From the NCBI GenBank assembly GCA_013388855.1, contig JACAEM010000026.1:1-64000 (forward strand): a stretch of DNA of 64,000 nucleotides, written 5' to 3'. This stretch comes from Chloroflexota bacterium (lineage in GTDB: Bacteria; Chloroflexota; Anaerolineae; Anaerolineales; Villigracilaceae). The translations under genes were made by a program, and so were the position numbers. This document shows, in pieces, positions 30,925 through 39,663 of this stretch. Under the pieces are notes generated by a model that saw only the letters and a program-made list of their open reading frames with translations, was not told the DNA's origin and did no database searches. Position 1 is the first letter of the stretch, and the number at the start of each line of letters is the position of its first letter.

Positions 30925-31935
30925 TCAGGGGAGATTAATCCAGCCTGCATCGAGCAGATACAGGTAAAGATACCCGACAAGCAACAATACCCAACCGAGC
31001 AGTTGCAGTTTGTCCATGAGGTTCTCCCAAGACATGGTGAAATTATCCTTGATGGTTTCCACAATGTTCTCCAGGTTATCGAGCTTGCTGCGTACGCTTT
31101 CCTTCCAGTCCTTGAGATAAAACTCATTCTGAATGGACTCGTACAGTTTGGCGGTATACCAATCACCGATGAGAAGCAGGCTTTGCTCGGCGCGCTCGAA
31201 ATCGAGCATCACCTCGAGACGGTGTTCTGCAATCTGGCGAATCAGCCCGCGCGTGGGGCGCGGCCGGCGCCTATTCTGGAAGAACGCTTCGCTGATCTTG
31301 TCCAACATTTCTTCTATGGACTGATCCAGCATGCGGTAACGCAGCAACTGATAATTGCCGATCTTGAGCAGGGCAATATCGGAGCGGTAATCCGCTTTAG
31401 GGGCGATGATGACCGCGCCCTCCCAATCGATGAGGGTCAGTTCCTCGGCGGAGTAGCGCGTGCGCGAGCCGAGGATTTCGTTGACCTCCTCCTTATCGAA
31501 CACTTCACGTTGTGAACGGATGAAATTGGCGATGGCGAGCGCATTCTTGTCGATCCATTTGTCCGGCGTGGGTTTGGCATCCTGCACCAGCAGGATGGAA
31601 TATTCCTCGAACAACCCGCTCCGTCGATGCGCTTCGGGAATGTACCGGCTTTGCAGCGCGCTCTGGATCTTGGTGCGCACTTGAAAAACGGAACCAGCAA
31701 ACGGGTCGGGAAGATCGAAGCGGCATTCCACCATCTGCACGCGGTCATCGTAACGGTGCCGCATCACCGAGACGGCAAATCCCTCAATCACGATGGTCTC
31801 ATCACCGAGCGTCACAAGGTCAATATCCACCGGCTGGAAGTACGGCGCGTCCTTGATCAATCCCTTGAACTGTTCCGGCGGCGGCGCGACCCCCTCCCCT
31901 GAATCAGGAAAAGCGAGAAGATAACAAATTTCCAT
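30925..31935 (-). CDS. Tail-anchored-like protein, DUF155/RMD1-like layout
   Basis: The 336-residue protein is soluble up to about residue 300. Conserved-looking blocks are LLKIGNYQLLRYRMLDQSIEE and a helical region rich in charged residues, and a single hydrophobic segment (about 308-330, LGWVLLLVGYLYLYLLDAGW) lies at the very C terminus. This is the layout of DUF155/RMD1 proteins, but the similarity is only in overall form, so the family call is weak. The C-terminal anchor makes it a possible client of Get3-like ATPases such as those at 56138-58105; that is speculation. Confidence 0.6.
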   Translation of the reverse strand: MEICYLLAFPDSGEGVAPPPEQFKGLIKDAPYFQPVDIDLVTLGDETIVIEGFAVSVMRHRYDDRVQMVECRFDLPDPFAGSVFQVRTKIQSALQSRYIPEAHRRSGLFEEYSILLVQDAKPTPDKWIDKNALAIANFIRSQREVFDKEEVNEILGSRTRYSAEELTLIDWEGAVIIAPKADYRSDIALLKIGNYQLLRYRMLDQSIEEMLDKISEAFFQNRRRPRPTRGLIRQIAEHRLEVMLDFERAEQSLLLIGDWYTAKLYESIQNEFYLKDWKESVRSKLDNLENIVETIKDNFTMSWENLMDKLQLLGWVLLLVGYLYLYLLDAGWINLP

Positions 31936-31957: not shown

Positions 31958-32686
31958 TTAGACCTGCCCCCACACAAAATGTGTTGGTACATGCAGAACG
32001 CGCCTCCCTTGTGCGCGGGCTTGCTGGTCGAGATCTTTCATTTGTTGGATGTCTTTGCCCGAAATGAATCCTGTCAGGTCGGATTCGATCACCGCCCATT
32101 CCATCTCCCATTCCTCGGCTGATGGTTCTTTTTCCGCGCCTTGAATTGTTCCCGTTTCATTGATTTTTATCCCCGCCTCAAAAAAGGATTCTGCCAACCG
32201 CACCCCGAAACCGGGATCCGCACCCTGTCGTTTCAATGCTTCAATTTGCCATCTTCCCAGCGGGGTCAATTCAGCGGGCTGATCCACCCGGCGCGAATAA
32301 TTCGGTTCTGCAAAGGCAAGGATATGTCCGCCGGATTTTGTCACACGCTTCATTTCGGTCAATGCCTGCAGGGGATCGCGTACCCAAAGCAACAGGAAAT
32401 GACAGTATACAATATCGAACAATCTACCCGAATAGGGGAGTGACAGCGCGTTTCCATGAACCAGTGAAGCGCCTGGAACATGAGCCCGGCATTCCGCCAG
32501 CGCGGCAAAGTTAATATCCAGTCCGTGAAGCGATGCAGGCGTGATCAATTCATGCAAAATGGCGCCAGTGCCGCATCCCACCTCAAGTACGCGCTGGGCG
32601 TGTTTCAATCCCACCTTCTCGAAAAGATAAACGCGCAGGTCGCGAGTCCACGCGGCTTGTTGGATGTAGCGTTGGTGCCAATTCAT
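31958..32686 (-). CDS. Class I SAM-dependent methyltransferase
   Basis: The 242-residue protein has motif I RVLEVGCGTGAILHEL (about 36-51), the acidic loop HGLDINFAAL and YSGRLFDIVYCHFLLLWV. These are the SAM-binding motifs of small-molecule or polyketide/ubiquinone-type methyltransferases. The acceptor substrate cannot be told from sequence. It is separated from the radical-SAM cluster by a dispersed palindrome at 32700-32752. Confidence 0.85.
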   Translation of the reverse strand: MNWHQRYIQQAAWTRDLRVYLFEKVGLKHAQRVLEVGCGTGAILHELITPASLHGLDINFAALAECRAHVPGASLVHGNALSLPYSGRLFDIVYCHFLLLWVRDPLQALTEMKRVTKSGGHILAFAEPNYSRRVDQPAELTPLGRWQIEALKRQGADPGFGVRLAESFFEAGIKINETGTIQGAEKEPSAEEWEMEWAVIESDLTGFISGKDIQQMKDLDQQARAQGRRVLHVPTHFVWGQV

Positions 32687-32764: not shown

Positions 32765-33910
32765 CTACTGATATATCTTCTCCCACTCGTCTCGCAGGAA
32801 GTTGCCCAGCACTTGGTCTGCCGTGCCTTGGGCGGGGAGCACATCGCCGTCGGGTTCCACGTACAACCAGACTTTGCCCGCGCCGGATGGGAGATCATCC
32901 TCCTCTGTCTCCAGGGCAACCGGGTTCTGCGCGGAGTAGGGGACGGGCAGATCGAATGCCAATGTAATGTTCAAGTCCGCGGCTTTTTGCATCAAAGCAT
33001 CCAGTTGAGATCTCAGTGACATATCCGCGAGGCCGACGGAAATGCTTTTCACCCCCAATTGGGCGAGTCTTTCAAGTGTGGCAGGTATGTTCGGAGAGAC
33101 TTCTTTGTTGACCGTGATGTGCACTGTGACGAACAGATCTTCGGGCATGACGGTTCCGAGCGCTTTCCATGATTTTTCGTTGTCAGGCTGGAGCAGAAAG
33201 AGCAGGTGGTCGAGTCCTGTTTGCAGGAGGGTGTGGAGATATTCCTTGTCTGCCAGTTTCAAACCGTCGCTGAGTAGACCGCAGACCTGTCCGAGGCTTT
33301 CGGCGTGAGCAATCAGCGCGGGAAGGTCTTCGCGCAAAGTGGGTTCTCCGCCCGTAAATGTGATGTGAGGAATCCCAGCCCGCCAGGCTTTATCGAGGAT
33401 GGACTTCCATTCGTCGGTGGTCAGTTCACGGTCGACGCGCTTGGCAGGGGCGTATTCTGCCTGGGTGCCTGGGGGCAATTTGTAGGTCAAGGCACAGTCG
33501 AGGCGGAGCGGAGCGGTGAGGTCGGCTGAATGGGGCGCGACCCGCTCAAAGTCCAGATAGGAGACGGGGTCCAGGTCCGGTGTGGAGATCAGGGTCTGGA
33601 TGCGGTCCATGAAGTCATGGAAATCCTGAAGCGCCACTTCCTTTTTGACGCGATAGCGCGCGGAAACCTGCTTCGCAGCTTCGTCCGGATCGGTGCCTTT
33701 GATAAAGTGGAAGGCATATTCGGCGGCAGTGGGATTGAGGTGCAGGACAGTAGCGGCGTTGACGATCAGGATGCCAGAGCCATCCTTGCGCAGACGCAAA
33801 TGCAGGCGGAAAGGGCGTTCGTGTTCATGAGCAGCTTGCATGTGATGCAGCCCCTCGGGCAGAGGCGTGACCTTTGAAAAACGCTCGGTGAGACGGTGGA
33901 AAAAGTTCAT
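32765..33910 (-). CDS. PqqD-like/radical-SAM homologue without cluster cysteines (pseudoenzyme)
   Basis: The start is ATG 33910 with AGGAG 8 nt upstream. The 381-residue protein has the PqqD-like N-terminal domain (about 35-108; GILIVNAATVLHLNPTAAEY). A radical-SAM barrel follows that keeps the SAM-binding GGEPTLR. Where its neighbour has CNNDCAHC it reads LPPGTQAE (residues 145-152), so Leu145, Thr149 and Glu152 replace the three cluster ligands. It stops at VEPDGDVLPAQGTADQVLGNF, lacking the SPASM cysteines. It cannot bind the 4Fe-4S cluster and is probably a partner subunit that recruits or positions a peptide substrate. It is the last gene of the cluster, 12 bp after the PAS gene. Confidence 0.85.
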   Translation of the reverse strand: MNFFHRLTERFSKVTPLPEGLHHMQAAHEHERPFRLHLRLRKDGSGILIVNAATVLHLNPTAAEYAFHFIKGTDPDEAAKQVSARYRVKKEVALQDFHDFMDRIQTLISTPDLDPVSYLDFERVAPHSADLTAPLRLDCALTYKLPPGTQAEYAPAKRVDRELTTDEWKSILDKAWRAGIPHITFTGGEPTLREDLPALIAHAESLGQVCGLLSDGLKLADKEYLHTLLQTGLDHLLFLLQPDNEKSWKALGTVMPEDLFVTVHITVNKEVSPNIPATLERLAQLGVKSISVGLADMSLRSQLDALMQKAADLNITLAFDLPVPYSAQNPVALETEEDDLPSGAGKVWLYVEPDGDVLPAQGTADQVLGNFLRDEWEKIYQ

Positions 33911-33921
33911 TTTATTTCTCC

Positions 33922-34263
33922 TCAAGAGCGGATGAAATGCGGCAGTTCGAATGGAATTTCAAGTGAGAGTTCGACAAACCCGGCGTACTCTCCGTTGCGA
34001 TACCAAGGCGACTGGTAGATCAATTTTTTGACGCCGTTCTTTTCGATGGTGTAGACGTTCTTCTCACGCGCGGCGAGCAGACGTTCGGTTTTGGTGCGCG
34101 CCGGTTCGGGGTGACAATCGAGCACGTTCGAGCCGATCAGTTTGCGACCGCCGTCCGCTTCAAAGGTTTTAGCGGCTTTGTCGTTCATTTCGATGATGAT
34201 GCCCTCCTCGTCACAGACGGTGACCGCGGCAGGGAATTCCTTGACCCAGTCTAATTCATTCAT
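33922..34263 (-). CDS. Small single PAS-domain protein
   Basis: The 113-residue protein is one PAS domain: FPAAVTVCDEEGIIIEMNDKAAKTF with the N-box, then LIGSNVLDCHPEP, and the C-terminal strands YQSPWYRNGEYAGFVELSLE. No output domain is attached. It overlaps the radical-SAM gene by 4 nt (ATGA) and is followed at once by the pseudoenzyme gene, so it belongs to the same complex or operon. PAS domains sense redox state, gases or small ligands, or mediate contacts between proteins. Confidence 0.82.
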   Translation of the reverse strand: MNELDWVKEFPAAVTVCDEEGIIIEMNDKAAKTFEADGGRKLIGSNVLDCHPEPARTKTERLLAAREKNVYTIEKNGVKKLIYQSPWYRNGEYAGFVELSLEIPFELPHFIRS

Positions 34264-35624
34264 GCAGGTATCTCCAATGAAATCAATGATGAATTCTCAA
34301 ATTTGAGCGGACATCCGCCGCCGCACTCTGCCAGGACGGGACAGCCTTCACATTTAATGGGTAGATTCTGCCGCTCGCGCAACTGCACCGATAGCTTGTG
34401 ATTCCAGATCGAGTCCCAGGGGTCGGTGAGGATGTTTCCAAGCGCTGTGTAGTACGACTGACAAGGCAGTACATCTCCGTTCGATTCGATGCACATGCTG
34501 TATAACGCCGCTGTACAGCCTTTGACACCCAAATTACTGGCGGTGGGATCGAACTCGCAGTATTGCGTAGGCGTGTACCAGATGAGGCGCTGCCCGCGCT
34601 CGCTGGTCTTGCGGGTGGCAAGGTCGAGAATGGGTTGTAATTCGCTTTCCTTGAGTCCGGTGCCTACCGTCAGACCGTTGCCGGAGTAGATGAGCGCGTT
34701 CAAACCGATGGTCGGTACGCCAATATCGGCGAGAAAATCCAGCGTATCGGGAATCGTGTGGACGTTCGTGCGGAGCATGGTGGTGTTGGTCATCACATAG
34801 AGTTTGGATGCCAGCGCGTTCTTCAATCCTTGAATGGTTTGTCTGTGCGCACCCTTGGCTCGCATCATCTCATCGTGGATCTGCTCATCGCACGACTCAA
34901 CCGTAATCTGCACATGATCCAGCCCGGCATCGACCAGCTTTTGCAAATACTTTTCATCGGATAGCCGCCGTGCGTTTGTGTTGAGACAGGTGATCTGTCC
35001 GTTCGATTCGGCGTGATGGATGAGTTCGGGCAGGTCGTTTCGCAGCGTCGCTTCGCCGCCGGTGAAGACGATATGCGGGACACCCAACGCCCAGAGTTGG
35101 TCCAGCACCTTGAACCATTGTTCCGTGCTCAGTTCGGGAAAGTTCCGTTCGCGGGCGTTGTAGCAGTGAGCACAGTCGTTGTTGCAGCGATAGGTGACCG
35201 CCAGGTCCATGCGGTAGGGCGCGGTGGGCCGGGCGCTGAACGGCATGTTCATTTCAAGATCGAGTTCATGGATGGGACAGGCGCCATCAGGGCGTATCAA
35301 TTCTTCGAATTGAAAGAGGAAAGAAGAAAGATCGCTTTCGGCTTGCGCTTTGCCGACGGAATAGCGTGACCTCATTGCACGCACACTTTCCTCTTTCGTC
35401 TTTCCTTCCAGGATCATCCACGCCATGAATGTAGCCGTAGGGTTCAAGTGCATCACGCTGCTGGCATTGACGATCAACGTGCCATTGCCATCCGGGTTCA
35501 CGCGCAGATGAATGCGGGATTTTTCTTCCGCGTTTTCGCGGAGGTAGTGATAAAGTCCCGCTGATGGGCCGTGGACAATGGACGATGGTTTCAGGAACGA
35601 TTTGAAGGTATCCAACAAAGCCAT
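34260..35624 (-). CDS. PqqD-like/radical-SAM/SPASM peptide maturase
   Basis: The 454-residue protein has three parts. A PqqD-like peptide-binding domain lies at about 37-112 (NASSVMHLNPTATFMAWM). The radical-SAM barrel has the cluster motif CNNDCAHC (Cys147, 151, 154) and GGEATLR. A SPASM-type C-terminal region carries auxiliary-cluster cysteines in KCEGCPVLAECGGGC (Cys425, 428, 434, 438), plus CQSYYTALGN. This is the layout of enzymes that modify ribosomal peptides or protein tails. AGAGGTG precedes the ATG. The gene lies 44 bp after the gene for a membrane protein ending in a Cys-Ala repeat tail, the obvious candidate substrate. The chemistry is not known. Confidence 0.9.
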   Translation of the reverse strand: MALLDTFKSFLKPSSIVHGPSAGLYHYLRENAEEKSRIHLRVNPDGNGTLIVNASSVMHLNPTATFMAWMILEGKTKEESVRAMRSRYSVGKAQAESDLSSFLFQFEELIRPDGACPIHELDLEMNMPFSARPTAPYRMDLAVTYRCNNDCAHCYNARERNFPELSTEQWFKVLDQLWALGVPHIVFTGGEATLRNDLPELIHHAESNGQITCLNTNARRLSDEKYLQKLVDAGLDHVQITVESCDEQIHDEMMRAKGAHRQTIQGLKNALASKLYVMTNTTMLRTNVHTIPDTLDFLADIGVPTIGLNALIYSGNGLTVGTGLKESELQPILDLATRKTSERGQRLIWYTPTQYCEFDPTASNLGVKGCTAALYSMCIESNGDVLPCQSYYTALGNILTDPWDSIWNHKLSVQLRERQNLPIKCEGCPVLAECGGGCPLKFENSSLISLEIPA

Positions 35625-35668
35625 GTATCACCTCTAAAAACTGACAGCTAATGGCTGAAAGCTAAAAG

Positions 35669-37333
35669 CTATCTTCCTCCACCCGCGCAGGCGCAGGCGC
35701 AACCGGCGCAGGCACACGCGCAGGCGCAGGAACGTCCGCCGCCACCGCCGCGATAGCCGCCTCCACTTCTGGAGGAAGGGGGAGGAGGGTTGGTCACGTT
35801 GGTGACGCGGCTGGTAAAGTCGTTGACGTTGCCGATGACTTTGTTCGAGAAGGTTTGTACACCGGTGACCACCGAGGCGGCGAAGTCCGCACCGGGCAGG
35901 GCGGAGGGGCCCCTGCCAGGACCGGGCGTCGAAACGGAGGCAGGTCGGGCGATGGTCGAACCGCCGCCGCCCCAGACCGGATCATACCGACCCCACCAAT
36001 TGGGCAGGAAGATCGGTCCAGTGAAGACGCGGCGCGTCCGGTCATCGTAGTCCTTGTCGAGCATGGTCCATTCGAGGGCTTCGTCGAATTTCTGGCTTTT
36101 GACCTCCGGCGTATCGGCGGCTTCCACCTGCTGCCAGGCTTTTTCCATGATGCTCTTGTAATAGGCAATCGTTTCGCGGCGGCTAAAGCCCTTCATCTTT
36201 TCGGAGACGGACCGTACCAACTTGACTGTCATCTCCTGTAATAGTTTGCGGCGTTCCCTGAGGTCTTTGACCTTGAAGGCATCGAGGAAGTTGATCTCGT
36301 ATTCGTGCAATTTTTCAGGCAGGGGCGCAGCGACATGCAGCTCGAGCGGATCGCGTTTGACCACCTCCGCCGCGTTCTTCTTGACCACGCCGAACAGGAT
36401 CATGGTCATCACCTTATCGAGCGGCTGCTCCATCAGGATCGCCGATTCGACCGCCGTCAGTCCACGCTTGATGCCGTGACCTTCGATAGAGATCTTCGGC
36501 GGCAGGTATTGCAGTTTGCGGCGGTTCCCGGCGATGGCGCTCAGGATCGGGATGCCCAGGAACATGAAGCCGAAGAAGCCAAAACAGATCAGGCTGAAGA
36601 TCGTATCGGGTGAAACGGAGAAGGAAGGCAGTTGTACCGTCACGATACTGTCTGCCGGAACGTTGCTCTTGGGGAATGACGCGCCGAATTTGTAGGAAAC
36701 ATCCGGCGCGGCGTTGGGATTGCGCCATGTGTAGGTGACACGTCCCTCCGCATCAAGGGCGGTCTCCGGCTCGGAAGGGAACCCGGACGGCGCGGAATGC
36801 CAGCGCGGTTCTTCGGGCTGGACACTCGGCGGCAGATGGTAGATGACTGTGATATCGGTGCTGCCGGTCACCACACTGCTTTGGTAATACAGCGGAGCGA
36901 ACACTGCACTGACGTAATTTTCATCTTCATAGTCTTTATACAGGACACCGGAAACGCGTCCAACAGAGACGTGAACGGTTCCCGTTTCCCCGGGCGGAAT
37001 CGCGTACGGACCCATCTCCACGGCAAAGCCATAGCCGCCGATCCCTTGAAAGTCGCTGGAGATCGAAAGTGGATTCCCGTTGATGGTCGCTTGGATGCTG
37101 TTAAAATCGAAATTACCGTTGGGCATGCCCACATCCACGAATTCGATGGCATGACCACTGGGCTGGTTCGTGAATGTGAGCAGATAATCCAGCGCCTGCG
37201 TCCCGTCCGAATTCCAATAGACGTTGACGACCTCCTTGTCGAGGCTGAAATAATAATCCTGCGCAAAGACGGATGTTGTAACGCTGAACGTGAGAATTAG
37301 GACCAATATAATCGTCAGAAGTCTTTTCTTCAT
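35669..37333 (-). CDS. DUF2207-like membrane protein with seven-cysteine Cys-Ala tail
   Basis: The 554-residue protein has a signal peptide (1-25, cut after VFA), an extracellular beta domain of about 210 residues, and a membrane span near 240-262 (FSLICFGFFGFMFLGIPI). A cytoplasmic region follows, then a Gly/Ser-rich linker. The last 20 residues (535-554) are SCACACACAGCACACAGGGR, with cysteines at 536, 538, 540, 542, 545, 547 and 549. DUF2207 proteins commonly end in a Gly-rich tail without cysteine. A repetitive Cys tail next to PqqD-like/radical-SAM genes suggests a modification target; a metal-binding tail is the alternative. GGAGG precedes the ATG. Confidence 0.85.
   Translation of the reverse strand: MKKRLLTIILVLILTFSVTTSVFAQDYYFSLDKEVVNVYWNSDGTQALDYLLTFTNQPSGHAIEFVDVGMPNGNFDFNSIQATINGNPLSISSDFQGIGGYGFAVEMGPYAIPPGETGTVHVSVGRVSGVLYKDYEDENYVSAVFAPLYYQSSVVTGSTDITVIYHLPPSVQPEEPRWHSAPSGFPSEPETALDAEGRVTYTWRNPNAAPDVSYKFGASFPKSNVPADSIVTVQLPSFSVSPDTIFSLICFGFFGFMFLGIPILSAIAGNRRKLQYLPPKISIEGHGIKRGLTAVESAILMEQPLDKVMTMILFGVVKKNAAEVVKRDPLELHVAAPLPEKLHEYEINFLDAFKVKDLRERRKLLQEMTVKLVRSVSEKMKGFSRRETIAYYKSIMEKAWQQVEAADTPEVKSQKFDEALEWTMLDKDYDDRTRRVFTGPIFLPNWWGRYDPVWGGGGSTIARPASVSTPGPGRGPSALPGADFAASVVTGVQTFSNKVIGNVNDFTSRVTNVTNPPPPSSRSGGGYRGGGGGRSCACACACAGCACACAGGGR
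35672..35731 (-). repeat. Cys-Ala coding repeat of the tail
   Basis: Alternating TGC/TGT and GCC/GCG codons form GC-rich 6-bp units encoding (Cys-Ala)4-Gly-(Cys-Ala)3-Gly3. Third-base variation (TGT once, GCG twice) suggests selection on the protein rather than a recent DNA expansion. Confidence 0.75.
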
Positions 37334-37358
37334 AACGATCCTCCAATCGTAAATCGAA

Positions 37359-37760
37359 TCACCACTTTGGTTCTTCGGTCAACTGATATGTCGTCCCGCA
37401 GAAGGGACACTCCACCGTGGGCGCGCCCGCGATCATCTTGACATTGTCCGCGCTGAGCGAACCGCCGCAGGAACGGCATTTCATCTGTTCGATCCTGGTC
37501 TCGCCGGGCAGGTCCACTTTCATGGTGACGTGCTGGACGACCTCGGTCTTGGTTCCGCGCTGGGCGGCGTAGACCAGTCCCGCACCGCCCGCCAGGAAGA
37601 GTATCCCGACACAGCCAAAGCCGATTCCAAAAGTCAACCAGTTGGAACCGCCCTGGGCGGAGGTCGAGCCGATCACGTTCAAAATTCCGTAGCCAAACAG
37701 GCATACGCCGATCAAAAATAATATCCCCGCGCCGATCTAGAGAAGTGTTTTGCTCGTCAT
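37359..37760 (-). pseudogene. Zinc-ribbon membrane protein with in-frame TAG at codon 8
   Basis: ATG 37760 follows AGGAG at 7 nt and encodes MTSKTLL, then TAG (37739-37737), then an open frame with IGAGILFLIGVCLFGYGIL, a first membrane span that needs the residues around the TAG for its start. A second span follows (about 40-58), and a cytoplasmic zinc ribbon CRSCGGSLSADN...ECPFCGTTY at the C terminus. Restart at TTG 37715 would give 118 residues and cut the first span short. The gene is 26 bp upstream of the Cys-Ala-tail gene. It is intact apart from one codon, so a recent nonsense change, a sequencing error or readthrough are all possible. Confidence 0.7.
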
Positions 37761-38010: not shown

Positions 38011-39663
38011 ATGACAATTCAAGATCAATACAACCGATGGAAAGAAACGACACTCAAAAAATCTCTGGATAAATTCAAAGAGCGGAAGGATCGCTTCGAG
38101 ACCTCCGCCGGGATCGAGATTCCGCGTCTCGGACTGCCATCACAGCCTGATCCCGATTACGAAACGAAGTTGGGATTCCCCGGCGAATATCCGTTTACAC
38201 GCGGAGTCCAGCCGACGATGTACCGTTCCCGCTTCTGGACCATGCGCCAGTACGCCGGTTTTTCCACTGCGGAAGAATCCAACAAGCGCTATCGCTATCT
38301 GCTCCAAAACGGACAGACCGGACTCAGCGTCGCCTTCGACCTGCCGACCCAGATTGGCTACGACGCGGACGACCCCATCGCGGCAGGAGAGGTGGGCAAG
38401 GTGGGCGTGTCGATCTCGTCCATTCGGGACATGGAGCAGTTGTTCGACCAGATTCCCCTCGATAAAGTTTCCACCTCGATGACCATCAACGCGCCCGCGG
38501 GAGTTCTGCTGGCAATGTATATTGCCGTGGCGAAACGCCAGGGCGTAGACATGAAGCAATTGCGCGGCACGATCCAGAACGACATCCTCAAGGAATATGT
38601 GGCGCGCGGCACGTATATTTTCCCGCCCGCGCCGTCGATGCGGCTCATCACCGATATCTTCTCGTTCTGTTCCCGGAATGTGCCGAACTGGAACACCATC
38701 TCGATCTCGGGCTATCACATCCGTGAAGCGGGCTCGACCTCCGTGCAGGAAGTGGCGTTTACGCTGGCGAATGGAATTGCCTACGTGGAAGCGGCGTTGA
38801 AAGCAGGCTTGAACGTGGATGATTTTGCCGGTCAGCTTTCATTCTTCTTCAACGCGCACAACAACTTTTTGGAAGAGGTGGCGAAGTTTCGGGCGGCGCG
38901 CAGGTTATGGGCAAAGGTGATGCGCGAACGGTTCAAGGCGCAGAAACCGTCCTCCTGGCAGTTACGCTTCCACACACAGACCGCCGGTTCGACGCTCACT
39001 GCCCAGCAGCCAGAGAACAACGTGGTGCGCGTCACAATACAAGCTCTTTCCGCCGTCCTCGGCGGGACGCAGTCCCTGCACACCAACAGCATGGACGAAG
39101 CGTTGTGGCTGCCTACCGAGAAGTCTGTGCGGGTGGCGCTGCGCACCCAGCAAATCATCGCCTACGAATCGGGTGTGGCGGACTCGGTCGATCCGCTGGC
39201 GGGATCGTACCTGATCGAATATCTCACCGACGAGATCGAAAAAGGCGCGCAGGATTACCTCGCCAAAATTGATGAAATGGGCGGAGCGCTCAAGTCCATC
39301 GAGCGCGGATTCATGCAGAATGAAATTCAGAACGCCGCCTATGCCGCCCAGCAGGCCATTGAGAAAAAGGAACAGATCGTGGTGGGCGTCAATCAGTTCC
39401 AGGTGGAGGAGGATTTGACACTTGAACGCCTGAAGGTCGATCCCGCCATCGAAATCGGGCAAAGGGAACGCTTGAAGAAATTAAGGGAGACCAGAGATCA
39501 GAGATTGGTCGAACAGTTGCTCGGCAAATTGGTAAATGCCGCTAAGGGCACTGAGAACCTGATGCCGCTGTTCATCGAATGTGTGGAAAACGACATCACC
39601 CTCGGCGAGATTTGTAATACTTTACGAAGCGTCTGGGGAGAATATGTGGCAGAAGGGTTTTAG
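38011..39663 (+). CDS. Methylmalonyl-CoA mutase, large-subunit catalytic domain
   Basis: The 550-residue protein is the (beta/alpha)8 substrate domain of the acyl-CoA mutases: [38 protein letters not shown], then [16 protein letters not shown] and [18 protein letters not shown]. The cobalamin-binding domain is missing, so a separate small subunit must be encoded elsewhere. The reaction interconverts methylmalonyl-CoA and succinyl-CoA. The [13 protein letters not shown] pattern favours methylmalonyl-CoA over isobutyryl-CoA. It stands alone, with its own promoter, and no methylmalonyl-CoA epimerase or MeaB-like chaperone is in the window. B12 use fits the corrinoid enzymes and chelatase nearby. 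Confidence 0.92.

Follow-up and report, generated by a model that had tools for sequence, protein, structure and literature searches.

A candidate radical-SAM maturation system for the Cys-Ala tail of a membrane protein in Chloroflexota

The window analysed here is a stretch of 64,000 nucleotides from a Chloroflexota bacterium of the order Anaerolineales (contig JACAEM010000026.1), and its minus strand carries, from 37.8 to 30.9 kb, a single run of genes encoding, in order, a zinc-ribbon protein, a membrane protein with a Cys-Ala tail, a PqqD/radical S-adenosylmethionine (radical-SAM)/SPASM enzyme, a PAS protein, a radical-SAM pseudoenzyme, a methyltransferase and a second membrane protein of 336 amino acids. 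The original prediction had described the first five of these as a system that matures a peptide tail, and reading the window places all five on the minus strand as proposed. They are also as tightly packed as had been claimed, with 25 bp between the zinc-ribbon stop and the membrane-protein start, 44 bp between the membrane protein and the radical-SAM gene, a 4-nt overlap of the radical-SAM and PAS genes, and 11 bp from the PAS gene to the pseudoenzyme ATG (or a 4-nt overlap if an upstream TTG is used). The set is not confined to five genes, however. Comparison with the loci of relatives, where the 336-amino-acid gene lies inside the cassette, assigns both this conserved membrane protein and the methyltransferase to it. 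The features are listed below, with gene-content counts taken over 49 complete relative loci.

37359..37715, minus strand: membrane-anchored zinc-ribbon protein, 48 of 49 loci; the start in relatives lies upstream (ATG equivalent 37760)
35669..37333, minus strand: DUF2207-like membrane protein, 554 amino acids, proposed substrate
35777..35902, minus strand: conserved helical segment, residues 478-519 (ALPGADFAASVVTGVQTF...FTSRVTNVTNPPPP), proposed leader-like recognition element
35669..35734, minus strand: tail DNA, RSCACACACAGCACACAGGGR plus stop, proposed core; 113 of 150 collected tails identical
34260..35624, minus strand: PqqD-radical SAM-SPASM enzyme, 454 amino acids, proposed catalyst
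33922..34263, minus strand: small single-PAS-domain protein, 113 amino acids, accessory, 25 of 49 loci
32765..33910, minus strand: radical-SAM pseudoenzyme with PqqD-like domain, 381 amino acids, proposed recognition/scaffold partner
31958..32686, minus strand: class I SAM-dependent methyltransferase, 242 amino acids, accessory, 39 of 49 loci
30925..31935, minus strand: conserved 336-amino-acid membrane protein (MEICYLLAFPD...), 33 of 49 loci

Translation of the tail-bearing gene gives the expected seven Cys residues within the last 20 positions (SCACACACAGCACACAGGGR), the C-terminus reading (CA)4G(CA)3GGGR. The protein comprises, in order, a signal peptide, a beta-sandwich ectodomain, one transmembrane (TM) segment (about residues 243-269), a helical cytoplasmic domain, a helical segment (residues 481-514), a variable Gly/Ser linker and the Cys-Ala tail. 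Its AlphaFold model is confident for the ectodomain and the cytoplasmic domain and shows a single TM helix, the helix at 481-514 and a disordered tail. In structure the ectodomain resembles general beta-sandwich folds of the M1-peptidase/ribophorin type, which carries little functional information. The label "DUF2207-like" holds at the level of profiles (hhalign profile-profile comparison against DUF2207 proteins of the same order, probability 98.9%, E 1e-17), although there is no direct Pfam match. Because the signal peptide is followed by a single TM segment and an RRK motif, hydropathy and the positive-inside rule predict a tail on the cytoplasmic side, along with the enzymes.

Within this membrane protein, conservation is highest in the tail. 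It is present on the full-length proteins in 80 named loci, which were chosen by similarity to the window enzyme and, as kept from the contig scan, all bear titles of Chloroflexota-group organisms, and a CA tail is found on 143 of the 153 distinct proteins that have this cytoplasmic domain and a complete C-terminus. Of the other ten, eight are short relatives without a tail, from the split arrangement described below or from related loci; one gene, in genome G045, is frameshifted or split, its tail falling in the following reading frame; and one protein has a Cys tail of another kind. Nearly all collected tails that are not identical vary only in the number of CA units. In an alignment spanning members down to about 32% identity with the window protein, the mean frequency of the top residue is 0.98 in the tail, compared to 0.65 in the ectodomain, 0.74 in the cytoplasmic domain and 0.29 in the linker before residue 478. 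Moreover, every codon is synonymously variable across the 143 tails, and the last 15 residues are encoded by 141 different 45-nt versions that specify one peptide, which shows that selection acts on the peptide. Chance or a GC-rich repeat artefact is ruled out, given that third codon positions are free and the peptide is fixed. A short tandem paralogue in one relative (L067:5221-5988) has an N-terminal TM segment, the cytoplasmic domain, FTKTITKATNP and the identical Cys-Ala tail without an ectodomain; since it retains both the FTxx[IV]TxxTNP motif of the recognition segment and the tail, these two elements appear to form a transferable module. Other paralogues, which consist only of ectodomain and TM segment and have no tail, lie directly upstream of the full-length gene (L087:2603-3430, L092:1985-2812 and L094:3306-4157).

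Both radical-SAM proteins had been predicted to carry PqqD-like domains, which are peptide-recognition domains, and Pfam PqqD indeed scores 31.6 bits in the enzyme and 23.1 bits in the pseudoenzyme (cut-off 23.4 bits). The enzyme also matches Pfam Radical_SAM (99.4 bits) and SPASM (39.1 bits). Inspection of the sequences likewise agrees with the claim that one protein has intact cluster and SPASM cysteines and the other has lost both. CxxxCxxC is present in 80/80 active-enzyme sequences and the SPASM pattern (CX9-15GX4C ... CX2CX5CX3C) in 80/81, whereas CxxxCxxC occurs in 0/75 pseudoenzyme sequences, whose C-terminal Cys residues are absent (69) or reduced to one (6). Even so, 95 positions of the pseudoenzyme remain near-invariant, among them GGE and portions of the PqqD-like region.

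The neighbourhood comparison suggested in the original prediction was carried out on 151 genomes of the order, the same set serving for the enzyme, tail-motif and membrane-protein searches. A radical-SAM relative is present in 94 of these genomes, the membrane protein in 92 and the strict tail motif in 84. Each of the 84 also has a radical-SAM relative, which leaves no tail-only genome, and 57 lack both (Fisher p = 1.3e-31, a value inflated by kinship, since the genomes do not count as independent observations). In G033 (84% complete), which belongs to the 84, the sole match is at the level of the pseudoenzyme. The ten enzyme-positive genomes that lack the strict motif carry variant tails (CACACAGCACACACAGGGR in G010 and G019, SSCACACAGGGR in G045) or have a locus that is cut at a contig end or too incomplete (G005, G037, G043, G050, G109 and G145), and G095 keeps the pseudoenzyme only (L252:2598-3743), adjoining leucine-biosynthesis-type genes. 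Enzyme, membrane protein and tail are all absent together from two genomes of the window's genus (G062 and G111) and two of its family (G051 and G087); G457, from the same genus, carries the cassette in full. Other families of the order have the genes in a shuffled order (zinc ribbon, enzyme, second radical-SAM protein, membrane protein), still linked. These several within-family losses and shuffled gene orders make simple shared descent unlikely as the whole reason for the association.

Such counts bear on the proposal that the tail is an unmodified, metallothionein-like metal or redox element, the enzyme making something else, such as a small cofactor, or the tail being a docking or metal-delivery site. 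CxC repeats do bind soft metals, and heme-pathway radical-SAM enzymes are among the best NCBIfam scores; the His part of the second tail type described below would also fit. No tail is found without the enzyme, however, PqqD-like domains recognise peptides, and small-molecule pathway genes are not constant in the cassette over the 49 loci, so that we consider this explanation improbable.

A different arrangement is seen in family f9, where the enzyme gene lies 1-3 kb off or on another contig, beside a tail-less relative of the cytoplasmic domain. In loci of this type (L258-L261, L189, L190, L193, L184 and L182) the enzyme has 500-577 amino acids and its partner is a membrane protein of 300-340 amino acids, homologous to the cytoplasmic domain and ending in ATYYG or ATFFG, while the tail protein and the pseudoenzyme are convergent nearby or located elsewhere. 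This pairing would fit an enzyme acting on the cytoplasmic domain or its tail-less relative, with the tail as a mere recruiting handle. We regard that as very improbable, since f9 genomes (L258, L259 and L261) also encode the CA-tail protein, next to the pseudoenzyme, and conservation peaks in the tail instead of the domain.

When the comparison is extended to the phylum, 27 out of 400 genomes have the strict tail end, a figure that counts the tail end alone for those genomes that appear just in this larger draw. One of these, G160, lies outside the order; its membrane protein is 40% identical and an enzyme nearby is 48-50% identical, but the genome is 8% contaminated and must be read with caution. 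In addition, G160, G274 and G500 encode DUF2207-type membrane proteins with tails built from a Cys-His-Ser/Asp-Ala repeat (for example CHSACHSACVHDACHSAC), at the following positions.

L257:4049-5794, DUF2207-type protein with (CH[SD]A)n tail
L256:8090-9808, DUF2207-type protein with (CH[SD]A)n tail
L270:3805-5646, DUF2207-type protein with (CH[SD]A)n tail

In all three genomes found, the gene is directly followed by a PqqD/radical-SAM/SPASM gene (29-34% identity to the window enzyme) and a coiled-coil gene. The second-type protein of L257 passes Pfam DUF2207 (PF09972; 25.5 against 24.4 bits), and the match of second-type proteins to TIGR04222 is weak (16 and 23 bits against a cut-off of 43). 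If the tails are substrates, one would expect just this combination, in which the same kind of membrane protein carries another repeat and is accompanied by a related enzyme. A scan of viral contigs gave one match, part of a membrane protein that bears a short CA tail and lies at the very end of the viral-contig segment.

In relatives, the gene for the 336-amino-acid protein is frequently placed between the enzyme and the pseudoenzyme; the protein belongs to no Pfam or NCBIfam family, and its structure gives weak CorA-like matches at most. The zinc-ribbon gene of the window has a TAG in frame at 37737-37739, codon 8 from the ATG at 37760, where relatives have Tyr, which makes its start and integrity in this genome uncertain; it may be broken, mis-sequenced or started downstream. 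In 40 of 49 loci the cassette is flanked by a divergent gene for the large subunit of methylmalonyl-CoA mutase (window 38011-39663), an adjacency that is probably conserved synteny only, and some relatives (L058, L110 and L114) have a gene for a secreted M28-type peptidase inserted within the cassette. Two other classifications of the locus were rejected: PADLOC finds only generic similarity to radical-SAM (viperin) and methyltransferase proteins, as opposed to a defence system, and mobile-element or plasmid cargo was discarded because the enzyme has no plasmid match and the synteny with the mutase is conserved.

That the tail is a target for modification, as was originally proposed, is supported by co-occurrence and by a link that persists through changes of gene order, losses in close relatives and altered tails; the modification itself we infer. 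On the sequence evidence the tail is very probably the substrate of the radical-SAM enzyme, and the locus as a whole is likely to be best explained by maturation like that of ribosomally synthesized and post-translationally modified peptides (RiPPs), acting on the C-terminal tail of a membrane protein. In this RiPP-like pathway the peptide would be tethered to the membrane as part of a large protein, and helical segment 478-519 would serve for recognition, with the PqqD-like domains of both the enzyme and its inactive twin binding to it. The active radical-SAM/SPASM enzyme would then perform repeated radical chemistry on the Cys-Ala tail, while the pseudoenzyme would serve as a non-catalytic docking partner that holds it. 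The most likely product would have S-C thioether links from Cys to neighbouring backbone carbons, thioethers being our first choice because of the Cys-rich substrate and the SPASM type of the enzyme. The cytoplasmic tail would probably stay attached, giving a rigid, Cys-based membrane appendage for redox chemistry or metal binding, although that function is a guess.

The main rival to thioether formation leaves the tail as substrate and changes the chemistry, for example to epimerisation of Ala (giving alternating L-Cys/D-Ala) or to oxidation or desaturation of Cys, with thiols on one face binding metal. Strict alternation and a composition of Cys and Ala only would suit this idea, as would the iterative action of radical-SAM peptide epimerases such as PoyD (PMC8188230). 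The window enzyme, however, has the SPASM signature (80/81 sequences) like the Cys-crosslinking group, and its weak similarity to PqqE, NirJ2, Ahb and sactipeptide maturases is non-discriminating. Known epimerases differ in the make-up of their auxiliary clusters. We therefore think such chemistry unlikely, albeit conceivable, and retain the thioether.

Several observations weigh against a RiPP-like pathway. Most RiPP pathways have a dedicated leader peptidase or exporter, and no constant gene of either kind was found in the cassette loci, the M28 peptidase gene being present in some only. The PqqD match of the pseudoenzyme falls just under the Pfam cut-off, and metal binding by itself could account for the conservation of a Cys-rich tail. 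Furthermore, the f9 arrangement implies that the enzyme may also act on, or dock to, the cytoplasmic domain. Nevertheless, we tentatively suggest, as a reading that is plausible but short of probable, that Chloroflexota have a new class of modified tails, anchored to the membrane and facing the cytosol, in which a radical-SAM enzyme paired with a dedicated cluster-less pseudoenzyme would turn the genetically fixed Cys-Ala repeat of a DUF2207-like protein into a polycyclic redox or metal-binding device, using one of several codes ((CA)n, (CHSA)n) for a household rather than an antibiotic role. If the RiPP-like pathway is correct, radical-SAM peptide chemistry would be at work throughout a bacterial order on a tail that belongs to a resident membrane protein, and would have a pseudoenzyme as its constant partner. 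The system would also supply a defined motif with which to test how enzymes of this type cope with dense Cys repeats in a substrate, and a testable role for the little-characterised DUF2207-type proteins.

Literature searches found no published description of this set of parts, in line with the original prediction. NCBIfam repeat-tail systems, such as His-Xaa-Ser (HxsB/HxsC) and ACGX (TIGR04340), combine a short repeated motif with a SPASM-type radical-SAM enzyme. The score for HxsC is 70 against 267.9 bits, however, and the CA tail has no His, while second-type enzymes score 91 and 97 against 400 bits for ACGX. Like the TIGR04347 pseudo-SAM/SPASM family, the pseudoenzyme has a conserved radical-SAM fold minus the cluster motif, but it scores 40.4 bits against a cut-off of 525. 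With DUF2207 proteins, the membrane protein shares a signal peptide, beta-sandwich ectodomain, TM segment, cytoplasmic domain and low-complexity C-terminus; those of the same order end in Gly/Ser-rich sequence without Cys, and an ordinary DUF2207 protein with a meaningless tail was rejected on this ground. The Asp-Cys repeat peptides listed in a mapping of SPASM enzymes are short peptides (PMC9062424).

Sactipeptide and ranthipeptide systems, especially TrnC/TrnD of thuricin CD, resemble this one in having a Cys-rich substrate, RiPP recognition element-type domains on SPASM radical-SAM proteins and a paralogous radical-SAM pair in which one member does the chemistry. An experimental precedent for a catalytically dispensable radical-SAM partner is TrnD: it binds TrnC, its contacts in the predicted complex are mainly with the leader, and losing its cluster cysteines is tolerated (PMC12093266). 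Here, in contrast, the proposed substrate is the tail of a 554-amino-acid membrane protein, the second protein is naturally without all clusters, and there is no exported antibiotic, transporter or constant peptidase. The maturase families are not matched either (AlbA, SkfB and StsB give 70, 92 and 98 bits against 850, 300 and 625).

The nearest described idea comes from the MNIO landscape paper, where TIGR04222 membrane proteins whose C-termini are rich in Cys are proposed as substrates of MNIO enzymes, which are unrelated to the enzyme here (PMC12452194). The window membrane protein has no match to TIGR04222 at the NCBIfam cut-off, and no MNIO gene was matched among the Pfam-scanned cassette genes of the window and their neighbours, or among those neighbour genes of relatives that were scanned. 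Instead of an MNIO, the enzyme here is a PqqD/radical-SAM/SPASM protein with a pseudoenzyme, Cys and Ala alternate strictly in the tail where the TIGR04222 proteins have Ser/Gly sequence with scattered Cys, and the tail is predicted to be cytoplasmic whereas theirs is periplasmic. What the two have in common is a low-complexity, Cys-rich tail on a membrane protein and a modifying enzyme that is encoded adjacent to it.

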